A DNA stretch of 54,610 bases from a bacterium (lineage in GTDB: Bacteria > CG2-30-53-67), in the NCBI GenBank assembly GCA_919901565.1, contig CAKKPE010000049.1, forward strand, positions 1-54,610, in the 5' to 3' direction. Positions 5,070 to 22,599 of this stretch are shown here, one piece after another; within the stretch, counting starts at the first letter, position 1; each line of letters opens with the position of its first letter. The position numbers and the translations under genes were made by a program. The notes under the pieces were generated by a model. That model searched no databases and was not told the origin of the DNA. It saw only the letters and a program-made list of their open reading frames with translations.

Positions 5070-5720
5070 TCATGTTTCCAGCCCCACCCGGTCACAATAC
5101 CGGTATATCCTGCAATCCTCACAGTGCGGCCCTATGGGGCGGCAGAGGTTCTGCCCGTAGGTCACCAGGAGATCATTGATGATCTTCCAGTGCTTCCTGG
5201 GAAGTTTTTCCCGAAGGGCGAATTCCGTCTTCTCCGGTGATCCCGTCTTCACATATCCCCAGCGGTTGGTGATCCGGTGCACATGCGTGTCCACGCAGAT
5301 GCCGTATTTGTTGTACCCGATGATCACGACCAGGTTGGCGGTCTTCCTTCCCACACCCGGAAGTTTCAGCAGTTCATCGATTTCATCCGGAACTTTCGAA
5401 TCATAGGACTCGATCAGCCGCCTGGATATTTCCCTGATGTTCCTGGCCTTGACCCGGTAGAAACCCACCGGATAGATCAGCCGCTCGATCTTTCTTGCAG
5501 TAATCCTCGAAAGCGCATCGGGTGTCTTCGCAACTCGAAAAAGCCTCTCGGATGCGGCGGCGGTGGTCCCGTCCTGGGTCCGAAGAGACAGGATGCAGGA
5601 GATCAGGACCTGAAAGGGGTCCCGTGTCCTTTCCGCCACCTGCCCCACGATCGGCACCTTCCACTTTCGCACCTCTTTTTTAAGAATGCGGACCACCGCA
5701 TCAATATCGCTGTCGCGCAT
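5070..5720 (-). CDS. nth: Endonuclease III (DNA glycosylase/AP lyase)
   Basis: The 216-residue enzyme excises oxidised pyrimidines and nicks the abasic site in base excision repair. It shows the helix-hairpin-helix LPGVGRKTANLV with the catalytic Lys, then VDTHVHRITNRWG with the catalytic Asp. The C terminus has a complete [4Fe-4S] cluster motif, Cys-X6-Cys-X2-Cys-X5-Cys (CRPIGPHCEDCRIYRYC). Length is normal. Confidence 0.95.
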   Translation of the reverse strand: MRDSDIDAVVRILKKEVRKWKVPIVGQVAERTRDPFQVLISCILSLRTQDGTTAAASERLFRVAKTPDALSRITARKIERLIYPVGFYRVKARNIREISRRLIESYDSKVPDEIDELLKLPGVGRKTANLVVIIGYNKYGICVDTHVHRITNRWGYVKTGSPEKTEFALREKLPRKHWKIINDLLVTYGQNLCRPIGPHCEDCRIYRYCDRVGLET

Positions 5721-5792: not shown

Positions 5793-6875
5793 TTAGACAC
5801 CCTTGTGTCTAATGGGGTCTTCCGTCTTCAGAATCTCTTCCATGAGTGCATCCGCGAGGTCTTCCTCCCTGACTTTGCGCACGATCTTCCCCTTGCGGAA
5901 GATCAGGCCCACGCCCTTGCCGCCGGCAATCCCGAAATCAGCCTCCCTGGCCTCGCCGGGGCCGTTGACCACGCATCCCATAACGGCGACATCCAGCGGG
6001 GTCTTCAGATGGGATAGTCTTTCTTCCACTTCGTGGGCCAGGCCGATGAGGTCGATCTCACACCTCCCGCAGGTGGGGCAGGAGATCATGACCGGGCCCG
6101 CCTCCCTGAGCCCCAGGGATTTGAGGATCTCCATACCGACTCTGACTTCCTGGACCGGATCATCGGTCAAAGAGACCCGGAGAGTATCCCCGATCCCCTC
6201 GGCCAGGAGGATCCCCAGTCCCACCGAAGACTTGACCGTACCCGGAAGAAAGGTCCCGGCCTCTGTGATCCCGATATGCAGGGGATAGTCGGTCTCTTCA
6301 GCGATCAGGCGGTAGGCCTCCACGGTCCTCTTCACATCCGATGCCTTGAGTGATATTTTGATCTCCCGGAAATCCAGGCTCTCAAAAAATCGGACATGAT
6401 TAAGGGCGCTCTCCACCATGGCCTCAGGCGTGGGGCCGCCGTATTTTTCCCATAGTTCCGGCTCCAGGGAGCCGGCATTGACCCCGATCCGTATCGGGAC
6501 TCCCCGTTTCCCGGCCGCACGGACAATGGCTTCAACCCTGTCTGGTTCCCCGATATTCCCTGGGTTGATCCGCAGGGCATCCGCTCCTTGCTCGATAGCC
6601 TCAAGGGCGAGCCGGTAATCAAAATGGATGTCTGCAATCAGGGGAATCCTGATCGCCTCTTTGATCTTTGACAGGGACCTTGCCGCCTCCTGGTCCGGAA
6701 CCGCTACCCTGACCAGGTCGCACCCGGCCTCCTGGAGCCGGATGATCTGCGCCACGGTGGCCCCGGCGTCCCGGGTATCGGTATTGCACATGGACTGGAC
6801 AGTGATCGGGGCATCCCCCCCGACCGGAATATTCCCGATGCGGATCTGACGGGTCTTTTTTCTCCTGATATCCAT
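5793..6875 (-). CDS. ispG: 4-hydroxy-3-methylbut-2-enyl diphosphate synthase (flavodoxin/ferredoxin)
   Basis: IspG (GcpE) converts MEcPP to HMBPP, the penultimate step of the MEP isoprenoid pathway, with a [4Fe-4S] cluster. The TIM-barrel half starts [21 protein letters not shown]. The cluster ligands are in [11 protein letters not shown] and [11 protein letters not shown] near the C terminus. The single-barrel bacterial length (about 360 residues) fits. I place the start at the ATG at 6875; a GTG at 6896 is in frame but lies in the palindromic repeat that precedes the gene. With dxr upstream it gives two MEP genes in this block. Confidence 0.95.
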
Positions 6876-6957: not shown

Positions 6958-8655
6958 CTAACCGAATAACCTCATGATGTCATTGTACGTTACAAACAGG
7001 ATGAGAGAAACCAGAAGAAAGAGGCCGACTTGCTGGGCGATCTCCCGTTTCTTCAAGCTGACCGGGCGTCCAATTATCCCTTCAATGCCGAAGAAAAGGA
7101 TATGCCCCCCGTCCAGGATGGGAATGGGAAGCAGGTTCAGGATCCCCAGGTTGATGCTGATCAGCGCCATGAACTTGAAGAGTTCCAGGACCCCGTACTG
7201 GATCTGCTGGCCCGCCAGCTGGGCGATCATGATGGGCCCGCCCATGGTCTCGGCGGGAATGACCTGCTGGATCAGCTTGACCAGGCTGATCAGGATCAGG
7301 ACGATGAACTCCCCGGTCATGGCCAGCGCCTTGTAAAATGCCGTGAAGGGATTGTACCGGACCAGTATGGTGGGCCCGGGCTTCGGATAATTGGCGCTGT
7401 ATATCCCGATTTTGCCCACGGAGATCTTGTTCCCCAGGAAATCTTTCTCGGTTGTCGCATCCGGAGTCACCGTGAGGGTCAAGCCCTTCCCTGCCCGGAC
7501 CAGCTTCAGTTTTAGGGGGACACCGGGTTTCCCGCCGACCTTTTCCTGAAGTTCCGGGAAAGTGAAGATCGGCTTGCCGTCGATTTCGACGATGAGATCA
7601 TCGACCTGGATCCCTGCTTTTTCTGCCGGTGACCCGGTGGTCACCTGCCGGACAAAGAGTTCCGCATAGGCAAGGCCTAATCCATTCAGGACCTGATATG
7701 GCCCATCCTCCCGAATCCGTTGGACCTCAGGTTCAGTCAAGGCTGCGGTCAGCGGAATTTTTTCCCCTTCACGTTCGACCTCGAACCGGATACTTTCCCC
7801 GAGATGGTGCATGATGGTCTGTTCAAGGAGAGGGATACTCTCGACTTCCTGCCCATTCACGGTGAGGACCAGATCCCCGGTTTTGAAACCAGCCCTCCCG
7901 GCAGCAGAGAGAGGAGAGAGGAGACCCACAACCGGCCCAAGGGTATTGTGCTGGATGCCGATGTAGGGATGTTTCTCGTCTTCGCCGAAGAGATTCTTCC
8001 CATCGGTGATCCCGGGTCGGACCTCGAACCTGGATTTGCCGTTCTCCCTGCTGACCTCAAGGGAAAGCGACTCTGCCTTGTTCTCCCTGATCCGCCTGGA
8101 GAGATCGTCCCACAGGCGGACCGGCTCTCCGTCCACGGCCAGGACCTGGTCACCGGGCCGGAGACCTGCCTCCCATGCAGGTGAGTTCCTATCGACCCAT
8201 CCGATGGTGGTATCGTCCGTTGGGTAACCGATCATGAACATTCCCAGAAAGACCAGGACCGCGAAGAGGAGATTGAAGACCGGACCGGCGACAACGATCA
8301 GAAACCGTTTTATGACCTTCTGGTTATTGAAGGACCGTTTTTGATCTTCAGCAGACAACGGCTCATTGGGATCTTCACCGATCATTTTTACATACCCGCC
8401 AAGGGGGATGGCAGAGATCAGATACTCGGTCTCCCCATAACGCTTACCGAAGATCCTGGGCCCGAATCCCAGGGAGAACTTCTCCACCCCGACCCCGAAA
8501 TGTTTGGCCAGAATGAAGTGCCCCAGTTCGTGGACAAAGATCAGAACTCCCAGGACCACGACCAAGGCGAAGATGCTCATCAGGGTGGGATGATCAGACC
8601 CGAAGGCCCTCAAAAATGAAAAATCAAACAGCGTGGCGGTCATATTCAATAACAT
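6958..8655 (-). CDS. rseP: Site-2 protease RseP with three PDZ domains
   Basis: A membrane zinc protease of the RseP family, which cleaves anti-sigma factors and signal-peptide remnants inside the membrane. The first helix carries HELGHF (His42, Glu43, His46). The C-terminal half has NLLPIPILDGGHILFF, the LDG metal site. Between them lie three PDZ-like repeats: near residues 125-200 (SPAWEAGLRPGDQVLAVDG), 215-290 (AGRAGFKTGDLVLTVNG) and 310-385 (SPAEKAGIQVDDLIVEIDG). E. coli RseP has two PDZ domains in about 450 residues; this one has 565. It lies in the dxr-cdsA-uppS block, its usual place. Confidence 0.93.
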   Translation of the reverse strand: MLLNMTATLFDFSFLRAFGSDHPTLMSIFALVVVLGVLIFVHELGHFILAKHFGVGVEKFSLGFGPRIFGKRYGETEYLISAIPLGGYVKMIGEDPNEPLSAEDQKRSFNNQKVIKRFLIVVAGPVFNLLFAVLVFLGMFMIGYPTDDTTIGWVDRNSPAWEAGLRPGDQVLAVDGEPVRLWDDLSRRIRENKAESLSLEVSRENGKSRFEVRPGITDGKNLFGEDEKHPYIGIQHNTLGPVVGLLSPLSAAGRAGFKTGDLVLTVNGQEVESIPLLEQTIMHHLGESIRFEVEREGEKIPLTAALTEPEVQRIREDGPYQVLNGLGLAYAELFVRQVTTGSPAEKAGIQVDDLIVEIDGKPIFTFPELQEKVGGKPGVPLKLKLVRAGKGLTLTVTPDATTEKDFLGNKISVGKIGIYSANYPKPGPTILVRYNPFTAFYKALAMTGEFIVLILISLVKLIQQVIPAETMGGPIMIAQLAGQQIQYGVLELFKFMALISINLGILNLLPIPILDGGHILFFGIEGIIGRPVSLKKREIAQQVGLFLLVSLILFVTYNDIMRLFG

Positions 8656-8888
8656 ATCCGATCCTTAAAATATTTTCATAAGAAGAAGGAGCCCTTCCAT
8701 CGCAGAAAAGAGCGCTGATTTTATATAACGTAACACAAATAAAGGCAAAAAACAAACGCAATAAAAGGGCCAAAAGGTCATACGGAGTGAAGGATCATGC
8801 AGAGGGATTTTTTATTGGAACAGATTTTTATGGCTCAAGACTTGGGACTCAAAACAGGGGATAGAAACCCGTCTGCGATGACCGGGAC

Positions 8889-9260
8889 TTATTCCGAGAG
8901 AACCGCCCCCTTGATCCTGACAAAGGCATTCAGCTCCTCAAAGAGACGCTCTCTGTCCAGTACGCCGTGTTCGACCAGGATCTCCCCCACATTCGGATTC
9001 TTCTCAAATTGAATTTCAAGAATTTTTTCAAGCTCTTCCCCGGTCAAAATTCCGAGTTCCAAGGCGACCTCTCCGAACTTTTTTTCAGGGTCCTCGATCT
9101 GTTTGTTCAGGATGACATAGACATCCTTGATGCTGAGAAACTTCTCCGTAACCGCCACGGTCCCGATGGGAAGGCGTTTCTTCTTCTGATCATCAAGGGC
9201 CTTGAGGATCTGCGCCTCAGTGGCCACACCCCTTCTGATTAAAAACTCTCCAAAAAGCAA
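8889..9260 (-). CDS. Small tandem MshEN/GspE-N-like domain protein
   Basis: The 123-residue product consists of two repeats resembling the N-terminal domain of type II secretion and pilus ATPases (GspE/MshE): LFGEFLIRRGVATEAQIL, then KFGEVALELGILTGEELE, followed by VGEILVEHGVLDRERL. In MshE this motif binds cyclic di-GMP. No ATPase domain is present. The start is a TTG at 9260 with GGAG 7 bases upstream. It lies between dxr and rseP. I infer a free-standing c-di-GMP receptor or adaptor; binding is not shown by the sequence alone. Confidence 0.65.
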   Translation of the reverse strand: MLFGEFLIRRGVATEAQILKALDDQKKKRLPIGTVAVTEKFLSIKDVYVILNKQIEDPEKKFGEVALELGILTGEELEKILEIQFEKNPNVGEILVEHGVLDRERLFEELNAFVRIKGAVLSE

Positions 9261-9329
9261 TGGGTTACTCCTTATACCGGGTTCCTTCGTGATCTTCCTG
9301 ATACTTTATCGGACAATGATCAGGATTCT

Positions 9330-18882: not shown

Positions 18883-19262
18883 TCCGGATCCACTAATCGT
18901 CTTTGCTTTCGAAGACGCTCTGGCGGTAATTGCCCCTTTGGTTAATGTGATGAGGAAAGCCAACAGCCACTGCTCTGTAGATTCTCGGAATGAATCGATG
19001 ATAAGAGATAAAGAATGAGATCAATAAAAATGGGCGCTGTGGGGCTGTTGAAAAAGTCTCTTATGGTAAATAGTTTTGTCATGCCCGAGAAAGCGGGCAT
19101 CCAGTAAAACTATGAAAGACCTGGATTCCCGCCTACGCGGGAATGACGGCATGAGACCAGAAAAACACTTTTTCAACAGTCCCGCTGTCCCTATTTTCCT
19201 CCCGTATCGACTAAAATAATCGGTGGCTGTAAGCCATCCGATTGATTGCTTTGGGCATTACT
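18883..19262. other. Intergenic stretch holding a MITE
   Basis: About 380 bases after glnS. A 47-codon frame beginning at 18875 overlaps the glnS end, but it has no recognisable motif. The rest is occupied by the element at 19041-19183 and plain sequence leading to the accessory island. Confidence 0.5.
19041..19183. mobile_element. MITE with TIR GG(A/G)CTGTTGAAAAAGT
   Basis: Left end GGCTGTTGAAAAAGT and right end ACTTTTTCAACAGTCC are inverted repeats. The interior has the dyad GCCCGAGAAAGCGGGC and the common CCTGGATTCCCGCC...GCGGGAATGACG palindrome. The hexamer CGCTGT occurs on both sides (19035-19040 and 19183-19188), as expected for a target-site duplication. It is non-coding and marks the left border of the accessory island. 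Confidence 0.75.
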
Positions 19263-20300
19263 TCATTTCCGTCTTTCGTTTTTGTCTGGCTTTGGTACAT
19301 CTTTAATAAATGCCATAATAAGATTGTCCATAATTTTTGGTAATGAAGTGTTAAATGTTTCTTTGTCTATCGTGAACAATTGATGATCACATCGATCAAA
19401 TAACATCTTCATTCTACAACAATATTTTTTAAAATCGACAAATTGAGCAACGATGCCTTGAGGTAGATTAACAAGCCTGTATTTTCCAGATTCAGTGAAA
19501 AAGTCTTTATTCTCCTGAGTGAAGAACCTGATCGTATACTGCCGATCGATCGGCGTGACCAAGTTCGGAAGAATATGTGCCAAAGTTTTTGAATGTGCCA
19601 CAATCGTCGCTTTAGAAATCGATACCTTCAGAGTGTAATAGATTTGCTCCAGATCATCTATATGTTTTCCATACTGCTCTTGGCTGCATGAATCCATCCT
19701 CAAGGAGGATAACTGCTGTAATGTGTCGCGGTGTTTAATAATGGATTGTTTGAATTCAGGAAACTCAACCATTTTTGCCTTTGTGATATCAGGATCTCCC
19801 ATCTTATGCATGCCCCACGAAGCCAATGTGGCATAAATCATTTCAATATGCCGATCAGAGAGAAAGCTGGTTTCCCGTTCCTTGATTGCCTGAACATGGA
19901 AATAAATTGATGGTCCTCCAAACTCTTTCATCACCTCTAATGAACGTTTGTAGTAATGGCCAATGTTTTTTATGAGATCATCCTCATTTCTCATATTGTC
20001 TTCATTCTGAGGTATCTCCGGTCTCAGCTTTGGCCTTGCTTTATTATTCTTTAACGAAATTTTCATTGGCTTATGGGTTTTGTCGCAGAAAAAAGATCTA
20101 TTCATGCGCACAAGACCATATATTTGCGCCAGCAACGCATGATCTAAATCCTTGTAATGCCCCTTGGCAACATTGCTGATATGCGAAGGGGTCCCATAAT
20201 ATTGAGGAAACTTCTTTTTGATCAGCTCACGAGTTTCTTGCGGCGTTATCGGCTCGGAAGTTGATGCAAGCATATTTTTCACAACATCAATAAAAGTCAT
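19263..20300 (-). CDS. HARE-HTH-like N-terminal domain protein of unknown function
   Basis: The 345-residue product is AT-rich compared with its neighbours. Residues 1-85 (IDVVKNMLASTSEPITPQE, then LLAQIYGLVRMNRSFF) resemble the HARE-HTH winged-helix domain often attached to restriction endonucleases and chromatin proteins. After a charged linker, residues 105-330 form a helical domain with conserved-looking FGGPSIYFHVQ, SKTLAHILPNLVTPIDRQYT and RFFTQ blocks that I cannot assign. No nuclease motif is obvious. It lies beside two toxin-antitoxin operons, so a defence role is possible but not shown. Confidence 0.6.
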   Translation of the reverse strand: MTFIDVVKNMLASTSEPITPQETRELIKKKFPQYYGTPSHISNVAKGHYKDLDHALLAQIYGLVRMNRSFFCDKTHKPMKISLKNNKARPKLRPEIPQNEDNMRNEDDLIKNIGHYYKRSLEVMKEFGGPSIYFHVQAIKERETSFLSDRHIEMIYATLASWGMHKMGDPDITKAKMVEFPEFKQSIIKHRDTLQQLSSLRMDSCSQEQYGKHIDDLEQIYYTLKVSISKATIVAHSKTLAHILPNLVTPIDRQYTIRFFTQENKDFFTESGKYRLVNLPQGIVAQFVDFKKYCCRMKMLFDRCDHQLFTIDKETFNTSLPKIMDNLIMAFIKDVPKPDKNERRK

Positions 20301-20396
20301 ATTTGCCTGCTAGTTCTTGATGCCCAACGATGTTATTAAGCGACAAAACGAGTGTAGCAGAAATAGGCTTCTTTGTAAAAGAAATTTGACATAACC

Positions 20397-20684
20397 TTAT
20401 TTGAAACGTTTTAAAATTTCTTTATACACTTCCTCGTCCCGTCTGAATCCAACCTTGATGACGTAGACCAGAACCTCTTTTTTCTTTATCTCATAAATGA
20501 CTCTATAGGATCCCACTCTCAGCTTCCATAACCCCTTAAGGTCGGCTCGCAAGGGCGAGCCAAAGATTTCAGGTTCACTCGTCAGCTTTTTCCTGATGGT
20601 CTTGATGATTTTCTGCTGGTCAGGTTTGTCGATCTTTCTGAAGTCTTCTTTGAGGACAAGCTCATCGATCAGGACGGTGTACAT
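20397..20684 (-). CDS. RelE/ParE-family toxin
   Basis: The 95-residue product has the RelE fold signature: a helical N-terminal half with DKPDQQKIIKTIRKKL, then LKGLWKLRVGSYRVIYEIKKKEVLVYVIKVG and the terminal basic segment FRRDEEVYKEI. Members cleave ribosome-bound mRNA. The start codon overlaps the antitoxin stop by one base (TAATG), so the pair is coupled. Confidence 0.92.
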   Translation of the reverse strand: MYTVLIDELVLKEDFRKIDKPDQQKIIKTIRKKLTSEPEIFGSPLRADLKGLWKLRVGSYRVIYEIKKKEVLVYVIKVGFRRDEEVYKEILKRFK

Positions 20685-20965
20685 TACCTGAGCCCCACCT
20701 TTTTCTCCGCCTCATCCAGGCTGACGTATTTTTTGCCTTTCCTTTCCATACGGTCTTTGGCTATGGATCCCAAGGCAAGATCCTCTACTTCATCGATTAT
20801 CCGTTGCATTTCCTGGTATTCATCGTAATCAATGATAACACCCAAGGGTTTATTCCGTTTGGTCAGAATAACACGGTGTTTTTTTATTTTACTCAGAACA
20901 TCGGAAACCTTGTTTCTCAACTCCGCAATTCCTATCAGAGCCATATCTTCTTTAACAGTGATCAT
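20684..20965 (-). CDS. Phd/YefM-family antitoxin
   Basis: The 93-residue product begins MITVKEDMALIGIAELRNKVSDVL, the DNA-binding Phd/YefM N terminus, with HRVILTKRNKPLGVIIDYDEYQ following and an acidic, helical C-terminal toxin-binding tail. A strong AAGGAGG lies 8 bases before the ATG at 20965; the upstream GTG at 20974 would overlap it. Autorepression from the AT-rich region to its right is the usual scheme. Confidence 0.9.
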   Translation of the reverse strand: MITVKEDMALIGIAELRNKVSDVLSKIKKHRVILTKRNKPLGVIIDYDEYQEMQRIIDEVEDLALGSIAKDRMERKGKKYVSLDEAEKKVGLR

Positions 20966-21098
20966 GTGAATCACCTCCTTGAATAGACTATTGAATTGTA
21001 CATTTCAATAGTACAATTGTCAACTTTAAATCCGCCATGCCGTGCCTCAATTCGACAGAATTGGGCACAGCTTAAAAAATTACCATCCCTGAGTACAG

Positions 21099-21755
21099 CT
21101 ATTTCCGGCTTGCTTGATCCAGATCCATGACCATCTGCTGAACATGCTTTTTGAAGAACTTCTTCACTGTGTTCCATTCCAGCTTATTATGTCCCAGGTA
21201 TCGGGGCTCAGGGTCTATGTCTGCATCATTGAAGTAGACCAACGACTTTCCGATATGGATCGGATTGACTCGATCCTTGCCGAAACGTTCGATCATGCTC
21301 TCTGCGATTTTCCAGAAGGGTACCGTTTGCATAACGGCATAAAGATCAACAAAATCTCTTTTGGCACCTCTCTGGCTGATGGCGATGATCTTCATGGATG
21401 CGATGTCTATGATCCCTGCGACGGGCACCCCTTCCAGATCAGTCATTTTTTCCTTGAAAGGATAAGCATAATGTAAAAAAGATATCTTAACTTCATCTGC
21501 CGTTACGGTTAATGTCCCCTTCTCTTCCTGCAAGACCATTGGTGAAAGCTTTTTTCCTTTGATCTTCTTGAAAAGCTCATCGGTGGGAAAGTTTTGCTCC
21601 GTGAAGAAATCCAGGTCTTCTGAAATTCTGTGTCCAATCTGGAGTGCCAGGCCGGTCCCGCCGGCTAACACGAACCGGTGTGCTTTGATGAGGCTCTTCA
21701 GTTTGGCAAGGACTTTTTGTGAATGTATTGGCAGTGTTTCAAGATAAAGAGCCAA
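21099..21755 (-). CDS. AbiEii-like nucleotidyltransferase toxin
   Basis: The 218-residue product carries the nucleotidyltransferase core of the AbiEii/MenT group: FVLAGGTGLALQIGHRISEDLDFF (GG...D-x-D pattern, residues 28-51) and KRDFVDLYAV near 130. These toxins transfer nucleotides, for MenT onto tRNA 3' ends. The start is a TTG at 21755 with GGAGGG about 7 bases upstream. It overlaps the upstream partner by 17 bases, typical for a coupled toxin. Confidence 0.85.
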   Translation of the reverse strand: MALYLETLPIHSQKVLAKLKSLIKAHRFVLAGGTGLALQIGHRISEDLDFFTEQNFPTDELFKKIKGKKLSPMVLQEEKGTLTVTADEVKISFLHYAYPFKEKMTDLEGVPVAGIIDIASMKIIAISQRGAKRDFVDLYAVMQTVPFWKIAESMIERFGKDRVNPIHIGKSLVYFNDADIDPEPRYLGHNKLEWNTVKKFFKKHVQQMVMDLDQASRK

Positions 21756-22119
21756 ACCAGACCCTCCAGAAGTTATTGGATTTGGGTGACAACTTCCTGC
21801 TCACCTCCAATGTTTCCATAATCAACCGAGTGGGATAAACTTTCTGAATCCAGTAAAGTTCATCAAGCCCTCCAAGCTCAAGGACTCGTTCGATGATATA
21901 TCTGGAGTTCTTACGGATGTCAATCTCTAATGGTGAGGTGTCCCAGAACAGATAAAAAAATCGATCGGGGATTCTGTTCTCTCTTTCATGCTGTTCTATT
22001 CTTTTTTTGACCTCAGGGTCGGAAAGAGCCCCCAGATATGTCTGCACCACCTTGCCTTCGCTGCGATAGGCAACATAGGCATACTCTTTGTTCTTTATTT
22101 TCTTAATGACAACACTCAT
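21739..22119 (-). CDS. Probable antitoxin partner, DUF6922-like
   Basis: The 126-residue protein has an N-terminal basic strand module (MSVVIKKIKNKEYAYVAY, then KVVQTYLGAL) and a C-terminal segment FFYLFWDTSPLEIDIRKNSR plus IIERVLELGGLDELYWI that resembles DUF6922, often found next to AbiEii-type nucleotidyltransferases. The canonical winged-helix AbiEi is absent. The order, strand and 17-base overlap with the toxin support an antitoxin role. The family naming is from memory. Confidence 0.6.
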   Translation of the reverse strand: MSVVIKKIKNKEYAYVAYRSEGKVVQTYLGALSDPEVKKRIEQHERENRIPDRFFYLFWDTSPLEIDIRKNSRYIIERVLELGGLDELYWIQKVYPTRLIMETLEVSRKLSPKSNNFWRVWFGSLS

Positions 22120-22448: not shown

Positions 22449-22523
22449 TGGTGATCCCAACGGGATTCGAACCCGTATTACCGGCGTGAGAGGCCAGCGT
22501 CCTAACCGTTAGACGATGGGACC
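22449..22523 (-). tRNA. tRNA-Glu (anticodon CTC)
   Basis: The minus strand folds as a cloverleaf: acceptor GGTCCCA/TGGGATC, anticodon arm CTGGC-CTCTCAC-GCCGG with CTC at positions 34-36, and T-arm ACGGG-TTCGAAT-CCCGT. CCA is encoded. It is two bases from tRNA-Gln, so both come from one transcript, and it lies at the border of the accessory island. Confidence 0.95.
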
Positions 22524-22525
22524 AG

Positions 22526-22599
22526 TGGCTCGGGTGCAAGGATTCGAACCTCGATAGGCAGATCCAGAGTCTGCTGTCCTACCATTGGACGACACCCGA
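22526..22599 (-). tRNA. tRNA-Gln (anticodon CTG)
   Basis: Acceptor TCGGGTG/CACCCGA, anticodon arm GCAGA-CTCTGGA-TCTGC with CTG in the loop, T-arm with GGTTCGAATCC, CCA encoded. It lies upstream of tRNA-Glu on the same strand and near gltX, with glnS a few kilobases away. Confidence 0.95.

Follow-up and report, generated by a model that had tools for sequence, protein, structure and literature searches.

We propose that a two-domain protein of 345 residues, encoded in the window (the whole stretch of 54,610 nucleotides that was analysed), is a DNA-reading, base-excising defence protein that travels as a horizontally mobile single gene, a reading to which we assign a probability of about 0.4. 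A defence role of some kind, as suggested by the first-pass annotation, appears likely. It is favoured by homologues within defence operons, by a restriction-modification system in the same slot of a genus-mate, by the patchy distribution of the family and by the cassette-like edges of the gene, and is weakened by several homologues that lie among ordinary-looking genes. The C-terminal domain is named by no library that we searched, yet it occurs in many phyla, in an archaeal bin, in viral contigs and within known anti-phage operons.

Results

An AT-rich gene with two domains

The features of the gene and its surroundings are collected in Table 1. The gene is AT-rich, as had been noticed previously, with a GC content of 38.5% against 52.5% for the window and 60.1% for the adjoining glutaminyl-tRNA synthetase gene. 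The earlier description as monocistronic is unsupported: the gene comes fifth and last in a run of genes pointing the same way, with overlaps or gaps of no more than 124 bp between neighbours. Despite this co-directional run, the gene's own block of DNA has sharp ends. Scanning for promoters and terminators gave no signal, with counts of 10 (expectation 6.5 ± 2.6) and 3 (expectation 3.2), respectively.

Table 1. Features of the gene and its genomic slot (window coordinates)
Feature	Position	Strand	Basis
Two-domain 345-aa protein gene	19263..20300	-	ORF, ATG start; relatives found
Winged helix, residues 1-86, HARE-HTH-like	20043..20300	-	model, structure matches, hhalign
All-helical domain, residues 103-335, HhH-GPD-like	19296..19994	-	model of residues 100-345 and structural rows
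K238 codon, invariant 28/28, candidate catalytic lysine	19587..19589	-	catalytic role inferred
D252 codon, invariant 28/28, candidate catalytic aspartate after proline-containing stretch	19545..19547	-	catalytic role inferred
Codons K322-N326, start of last helix (320-334); K322, D325, N326 invariant 28/28	19323..19337	-	alignment and model
GTTGGGC, GTTRRRY-type integron core at 5' edge of mobile block, starting 28 nt before start codon	20322..20328	-	core scan and homology edges
Degenerate attC-like site after stop: GCCCAAA and a hairpin that has a single bulged base; distal core worn away	19203..19257	-	homology edge and folding
Phd antitoxin and RelE/ParE toxin pair, bordering slot	20397..20974	-	family matches; 95.9% identical in genus-mate
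AbiEii-type gene and DUF6922 gene	21099..22119	-	family matches; no similarity in genus-mate stretch compared

Library searches with the window protein gave little. The sole Pfam listing was DUF3037 at E 0.067, below the cut-off, and we dismissed this assignment as chance. NCBIfam yielded no match, the PADLOC models yielded no family at E<=1, and PDB sequences queried with the protein and with a profile returned nothing meaningful. PHROGs gave a single partial match (E 0.0067), which was judged not meaningful. The proposed division into two domains was borne out by the structural model, in which a winged helix (residues 1-86) is followed by a helical domain (about 103-335).

The mobile block resembles a relict integron cassette

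Window positions 19251-20330 align with a locus (L006) of bacterium BMS3Bbin05, which NCBI leaves unclassified, at 90.7% identity across 1082 positions; no further similarity to L006 was seen within the 18.8-21.1 kb query. The 5' edge of homology falls at 20330 in this comparison, while homology with the genus-mate resumes at 20326. The heptamer found at this edge has counterparts elsewhere, as GTTAGGC precedes the start codon by 28 nt in L006, 15 nt in L009 and 90 nt in L008; heptamers of the GTTRRRY type precede L010 and L021 as well, where other cassette signs are missing. At the opposite end, homology stops at a second core-like heptamer, GCCCAAA, and the attC-like hairpin of the window that follows it has a folding z of -4.05, with an equally stable fold in 2 of 200 shuffles. 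It has a 20-nucleotide run in common with the attC-like site of L011, into which the alignment of the two gene ends extends. In both L009 and L011 the attC-like sites have paired cores and start at the third nucleotide past the stop codon, and by reading, the neighbours of these homologues are flanked by further attC-like stretches; the attC-like stretch that precedes the L009 homologue has a weak fold (z -1.81). A strict attC pattern scan found none at the window site, and it also gave chance-looking matches in L012, L016, L021, L022, L024 and L025, with 25 matches in 297 kb of shuffled sequence. The gene thus looks like a relict integron cassette that has moved horizontally. Integron cassettes are described as often encoding anti-phage functions (PMC12409362, PMC12444791), and the insertion of cassettes outside integrons, at attG sites, is cited in PMC12444791.

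Just beyond the worn attC-like site lies a 171-bp MITE-like element (19027-19197) with 36-nt terminal inverted repeats that are 78% complementary. It is present once in the window and, in the compared loci, only as copies of the same place.

The slot holds a restriction-modification system in a genus-mate

The annotated island bordered by tRNAs was confirmed on one side, where genes for tRNA-Glu and tRNA-Gln lie at 22449-22599 (the Rfam scan found these two tRNAs and nothing else), but the other side is formed by the glutaminyl-tRNA synthetase gene. Two toxin-antitoxin systems had also been counted. The Phd and ParE/RelE pair stands, whereas the second pairs an AbiEii-type gene with one for DUF6922, whose role as an antitoxin is unsupported. 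In the genus-mate (G001), two ORFs fill the space between the glutaminyl-tRNA synthetase and Phd-RelE genes: one is a type II methylase (PADLOC 6.6e-180), the other a restriction ORF of the MjaI type (Pfam 1.3e-32). This restriction-modification system (L128, 2671-4272) immediately follows that Phd-RelE pair on its downstream side, and homology with the window resumes 26 bp upstream of the start of our gene. Because a restriction-modification system occupies the same slot, defence-type cargo seems to be exchanged at this site, judging from one pair of genomes; in G002-G005, glnS does not lie next to gltX, and the comparison of the slot therefore rests on the genus-mate.

Distribution of the family and its invariant residues

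Relatives of the C-terminal domain were found at 22 loci among named genome contigs; in all counts of loci, duplicates (L002=L011, L003=L014, L004=L022) and the repeats L028-L031, L033 and L034 were removed. Their record titles include Bacteroidetes, Chloroflexi, Nitrospinae, Nitrospirae, Verrucomicrobia, Thermodesulfobacteriota and Planctomycetota, together with a Spirochaetaceae bin and an archaeal Thermococcus bin. Among 386 whole genomes, seven matched: the window's own, three that repeat contigs of the 22 loci, the marginal G045 (E 7.9e-4), and the additional G136 (L005) and G232 (L032). None of seven other genomes of the same genus, family or class has a member. With the alignment as query, five viral contigs were found to carry the C-terminal domain, after phage records and a first viral scan had given no relative. 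In plasmids, the window protein matched by its winged helix alone (two records), and the C-terminal domains of L009 and L025 had no match. Within open-licence papers we found no description of this family, which is weak evidence of novelty.

Most other members consist of the C-terminal domain alone. The winged helix is shared by L006, L007 and L008, which together with the window protein makes 4 out of 23 members in A2, and one further member of the 23 has DUF7669 (E 4.8e-16); from its N-terminal extension, we take this to be L022. The alignment of 28 sequences (A3) has 17 invariant positions, in window numbering P130, F134, E153, Y156, A157, T158, L159, W162, F183, V234, K238, P245, P250, D252, K322, D325 and N326. 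The LPNLVTPIDRQYT block that had been pointed out earlier corresponds to residues 244-256 and contains three of them (P245, P250 and D252). By eye, K238, D252 and the K..DN group are also kept in L005 and L032.

Several observations concern more distant or associated genes. The marginal match L035 (435-2124, E 7.9e-4) is a distant relative that has a helicase-like ORF on one side and a Panacea-domain ORF on the other; as a query it found few relatives, none of them in viral contigs or plasmids, and one more genome. Two viral contigs (L037, 5012-7212; L038, 3641-5836) have a two-gene pair in which a 490-aa protein precedes the homologue, and the L037 copy of this partner had no Pfam or PADLOC match. 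In L025, the homologue is directly followed by a member of a second unnamed family (8615-9286), here called family B, which is also present in nine viral contigs. Family B has the same LASWGM block, together with a K...P..D and a YPxMK..D block, in unchanged order. An hhalign comparison of the two families (9 of 12 family B sequences, the stop-broken L098 excluded) gave 81%, but the score rests on one eight-residue block, and it was reached by 1 of 40 block-shuffled decoys, with others close, and by 0 of 40 column-shuffled decoys. By its sequence, family B is possibly a distant relative, which we regard as a lead only.

Homologues next to defence genes

The neighbourhoods were examined at 24 distinct non-viral loci, namely the 22 contig loci, L005 and L032, with the window excluded. 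Family searches were run on selected neighbours, and the others were judged from the start of their translations. Known or candidate defence genes lie beside the homologue at six of these loci. In L005, 13 bp separate the homologue from a preceding type III methylase ORF (PADLOC 9.5e-63), and there is an overlap with a ResIII-type helicase ORF (Pfam 2e-7, PADLOC none), which is truncated by the end of the locus. In L012, the genes that follow downstream encode a type III methylase (1.7e-239) and the subunit of a restriction enzyme (3e-25), and a ThsB-like TIR gene lies about 1.2 kb upstream. Hma genes accompany two homologues: L009 has HmaA (4.9e-174) downstream and HmaB (3.5e-121) further downstream, and L013 has HmaA (2.8e-147) and an NYN gene upstream and HmaB (1.4e-41, incomplete at the contig end) downstream. 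According to a re-description, Hma systems are related to BREX (PMC12839542). The homologue in L026 overlaps a BrxA gene (1.9e-12) that comes after PglZ (1.8e-53) and BrxHI (8.4e-246), and the one in L011 lies downstream of the PADLOC candidate PDC-S18 (1.1e-98). Because strong HmaB matches (E<=1e-100) are found in 14 of 193 genomes, the presence of Hma beside 2 of the 24 loci looks well above chance by this rough yardstick. The neighbourhood analysis proposed in the first-pass annotation does reveal defence genes, but several homologues are alone: the visible neighbours in L010, L015, L016, L020, L021 and L025 are ordinary-looking or unassigned, which weakens a purely defensive reading.

The N-terminal winged helix is HARE-HTH-like

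The full-length model has a mean pLDDT of 86.1. Its N-terminal domain is a winged helix enlarged by one helix, built of four helices followed by two strands, and residues 1-86 match forkhead domains and ASFV I73R with Z values up to 8.7. The label HARE-HTH-like given to this domain is supported by hhalign, although Pfam HARE-HTH (PF05066) has no match at E<=1 to the window protein or to the 23 members. When six such winged helices were compared with 13 HARE-HTH domains (out of 23 matches found), the probability was 91% and the score was above that of all 60 decoys. HARE-HTH has been treated as a reader of modified bases that is fused to restriction nucleases (PMC10853773, PMC12839542).

Two plasmids of Burkholderiaceae (L108 and L109, both at 6001-6636) encode the same winged helix as the N-terminal part of a GIY-YIG nuclease, and one of them has a BsuBI/PstI-type (type II) restriction-modification system near the fused gene. 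In L007, a DUF7225 gene (2299-2562) lies directly 3' of the homologue bearing the winged helix.

The C-terminal domain and its candidate active site

Following the first-pass suggestion, residues 100-345 were modelled alone with 28 sequences, giving a pLDDT of 91.3 and a pTM of 0.90. Foldseek searches with the full-length and C-terminal models found nothing significant at E<=0.001, and neither did the viral structure library; the absence of a family from such structure lists is uninformative. When the 283 Foldseek candidates for the C-terminal model were structurally re-aligned, 16 rows reached Z>=2, and the top seven were all HhH-GPD enzymes from three subfamilies. They comprise Pa-AGOG (Z 4.4, the best, 171 residues, 5.8 Å), endonuclease III (Z 4.2, 154 residues, 4.7 Å), Pab-AGOG and MUTYH; these Z values are low and, as the tool itself warns, may reflect merely a common arrangement. 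The remaining nine rows are a Fic protein (162 residues, Z 2.1) and eight that align 59-90 residues. With the full-length model, MjaOGG2 (3knt; Z 6.8, 169 residues, 4.9 Å) appeared as a single row amid winged-helix matches.

In the model, a helix (218-223) and a loop lead to a second helix (233-243) carrying K238, after which comes a proline-containing stretch with the invariant P245 and P250, and D252 opens the next helix, 14 residues after K238. HhH hairpins usually have glycines, which are missing from the hairpin of this domain. A lysine in the second helix of the hairpin, then a proline-containing stretch and an aspartate, is the order described as defining HhH-GPD (PMC3397491). The AGOG hairpin differs strongly, yet its catalytic Lys140 and Asp172 are reported to superimpose on those of OGG1 and OGG2 (PMC3397491, PMC9638937).

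Profile comparisons gave no sign of a relationship with glycosylases. Pfam HhH-GPD (PF00730) was unmatched in the 23 members, and hhalign against glycosylase sets gave a probability of about 0.1%, with decoys scoring equally: the observed score was reached by 34 of 40 and 27 of 40 decoys for OGG2, by 15 of 40 and 7 of 40 for Nth/MutY, and by 9 of 40 for both pooled. The sets comprised 12 of 25 loci from the OGG2 search and 9 of 30 from the PF00730 search (one strand and a motif filter), which is not the strongest possible test. Judging from the models, a fold like that of HhH-GPD glycosylases is nevertheless somewhat more likely than not for the C-terminal domain, and base excision by K238 and D252 is a candidate activity to which we give slightly less than even odds. 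The statement that no effector motif is visible thus holds for sequence searches, while the invariant K238 and D252 and the fold comparison hint at a glycosylase-like site. Likewise, the domain may be called new at the family level, according to the library searches, but at the fold level it leans, short of proof, towards HhH-GPD glycosylases.

An HhH-GPD match (E 3.0e-25) is also encoded in the window at 5199-5603, one of two in this genome, with no sequence relation to our gene shown.

Discussion

According to our preferred reading, the gene would travel as an integron-type cassette with a distal recombination site that has since worn down. The HARE-HTH-like winged helix would bind DNA and probably recognise a modified base or a sequence, and the HhH-GPD-like domain would flip out a base, which K238 and D252 would remove, possibly nicking the strand, so that incoming phage DNA would gain abasic sites or breaks. 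Our confidence is moderate for the fold and weak to moderate for the glycosylase chemistry, and the target is a guess. A wider proposal, which we hold to be doubtful, is that restriction glycosylases of the HhH-GPD fold form a new class of defence enzymes that excise bases of phage DNA, encoded alone, on integron cassettes or as add-ons in type III restriction-modification, Hma and BREX-type operons, and guided here by a HARE-HTH-like reader of modifications.

In L005, L012, L013 and L026, the homologue is placed tightly among or next to genes for methylase, helicase and BrxA. This placement, the winged helix, and the lack of any enzyme linked by sequence would suit a DNA-binding subunit without catalytic activity, with an accessory, specificity or regulatory part in restriction or BREX; its helical domain would act as a scaffold, and its invariant residues would serve the fold or contacts with DNA or a partner. 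However, many members are stand-alone genes or single-gene cassettes and hence have no fixed partner, and the charged invariant residues K238, D252, K322 and D325 seem to resemble an active site. We consider such a subunit unlikely. A defence effector of other chemistry, with RNA or nucleotides as possible substrates, or a toxin that arrests growth, in either case with an unrelated helical fold, is a still weaker candidate and in our view quite improbable: the toxin-antitoxin and AbiEii neighbours in the window, the low structural Z and the invariant polar residues would agree with it, but the same mobile block lacks an antitoxin partner, DNA-reading domains are fused to the protein, and the top structural rows are all glycosylases. 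Very unlikely, finally, is a lesion-repair glycosylase or other non-defence cargo that is mobile and near defence genes by happenstance, for although the hint of an HhH-GPD-like fold and the six homologues among ordinary-looking genes would fit, HhH-GPD repair genes occur in 21 of 21 genomes searched against 7 of 386 for this family, which moreover sits inside multi-gene defence operons and shares a slot with a restriction-modification system.

Comparison with known systems

The window protein was compared with several known systems. Like phage-defence integron cassettes (PMC12409362, PMC12444791), the family includes short single-gene units, with attC-like ends in L009 and L011 and a worn one in the window; it differs in that no cassette array was found at the window and that the defence role is here predicted. 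Restriction enzymes fused to HARE-HTH or other winged helices similarly join an N-terminal domain of this type to an effector (PMC11037411, PMC10853773, PMC12839542), but by Pfam searches the effector here is not PD-(D/E)XK, HNH, GIY-YIG or PLD. The HhH-GPD glycosylases AGOG, OGG2 and endonuclease III may share the all-helical fold, judging from the low-Z rows, and possibly also the lysine in a helix-loop-helix, the proline-containing stretch and the aspartate. In contrast to them, our family has no profile similarity, spaces the two residues by 14 positions against 32 in AGOG (PMC9638937), and is patchy and defence-linked where these enzymes are near-universal. Brig1, an anti-phage glycosylase, offers a precedent for single-gene excision of DNA bases against phages, which is only proposed here, and its homologues are likewise described near defence genes (PMC11078745); it belongs to the uracil-DNA glycosylase superfamily (PMC11078745), to which the window protein has no Pfam match. 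Restriction glycosylases of the PabI family provide one for base excision as restriction, again only proposed here (PMC10273834), but they have the HALFPIPE fold and work within a restriction-modification system (PMC10273834), and our gene has no sequence match to PabI. If the protein is a true glycosylase, anti-phage base excision would extend to a third protein fold, travelling as one short gene.
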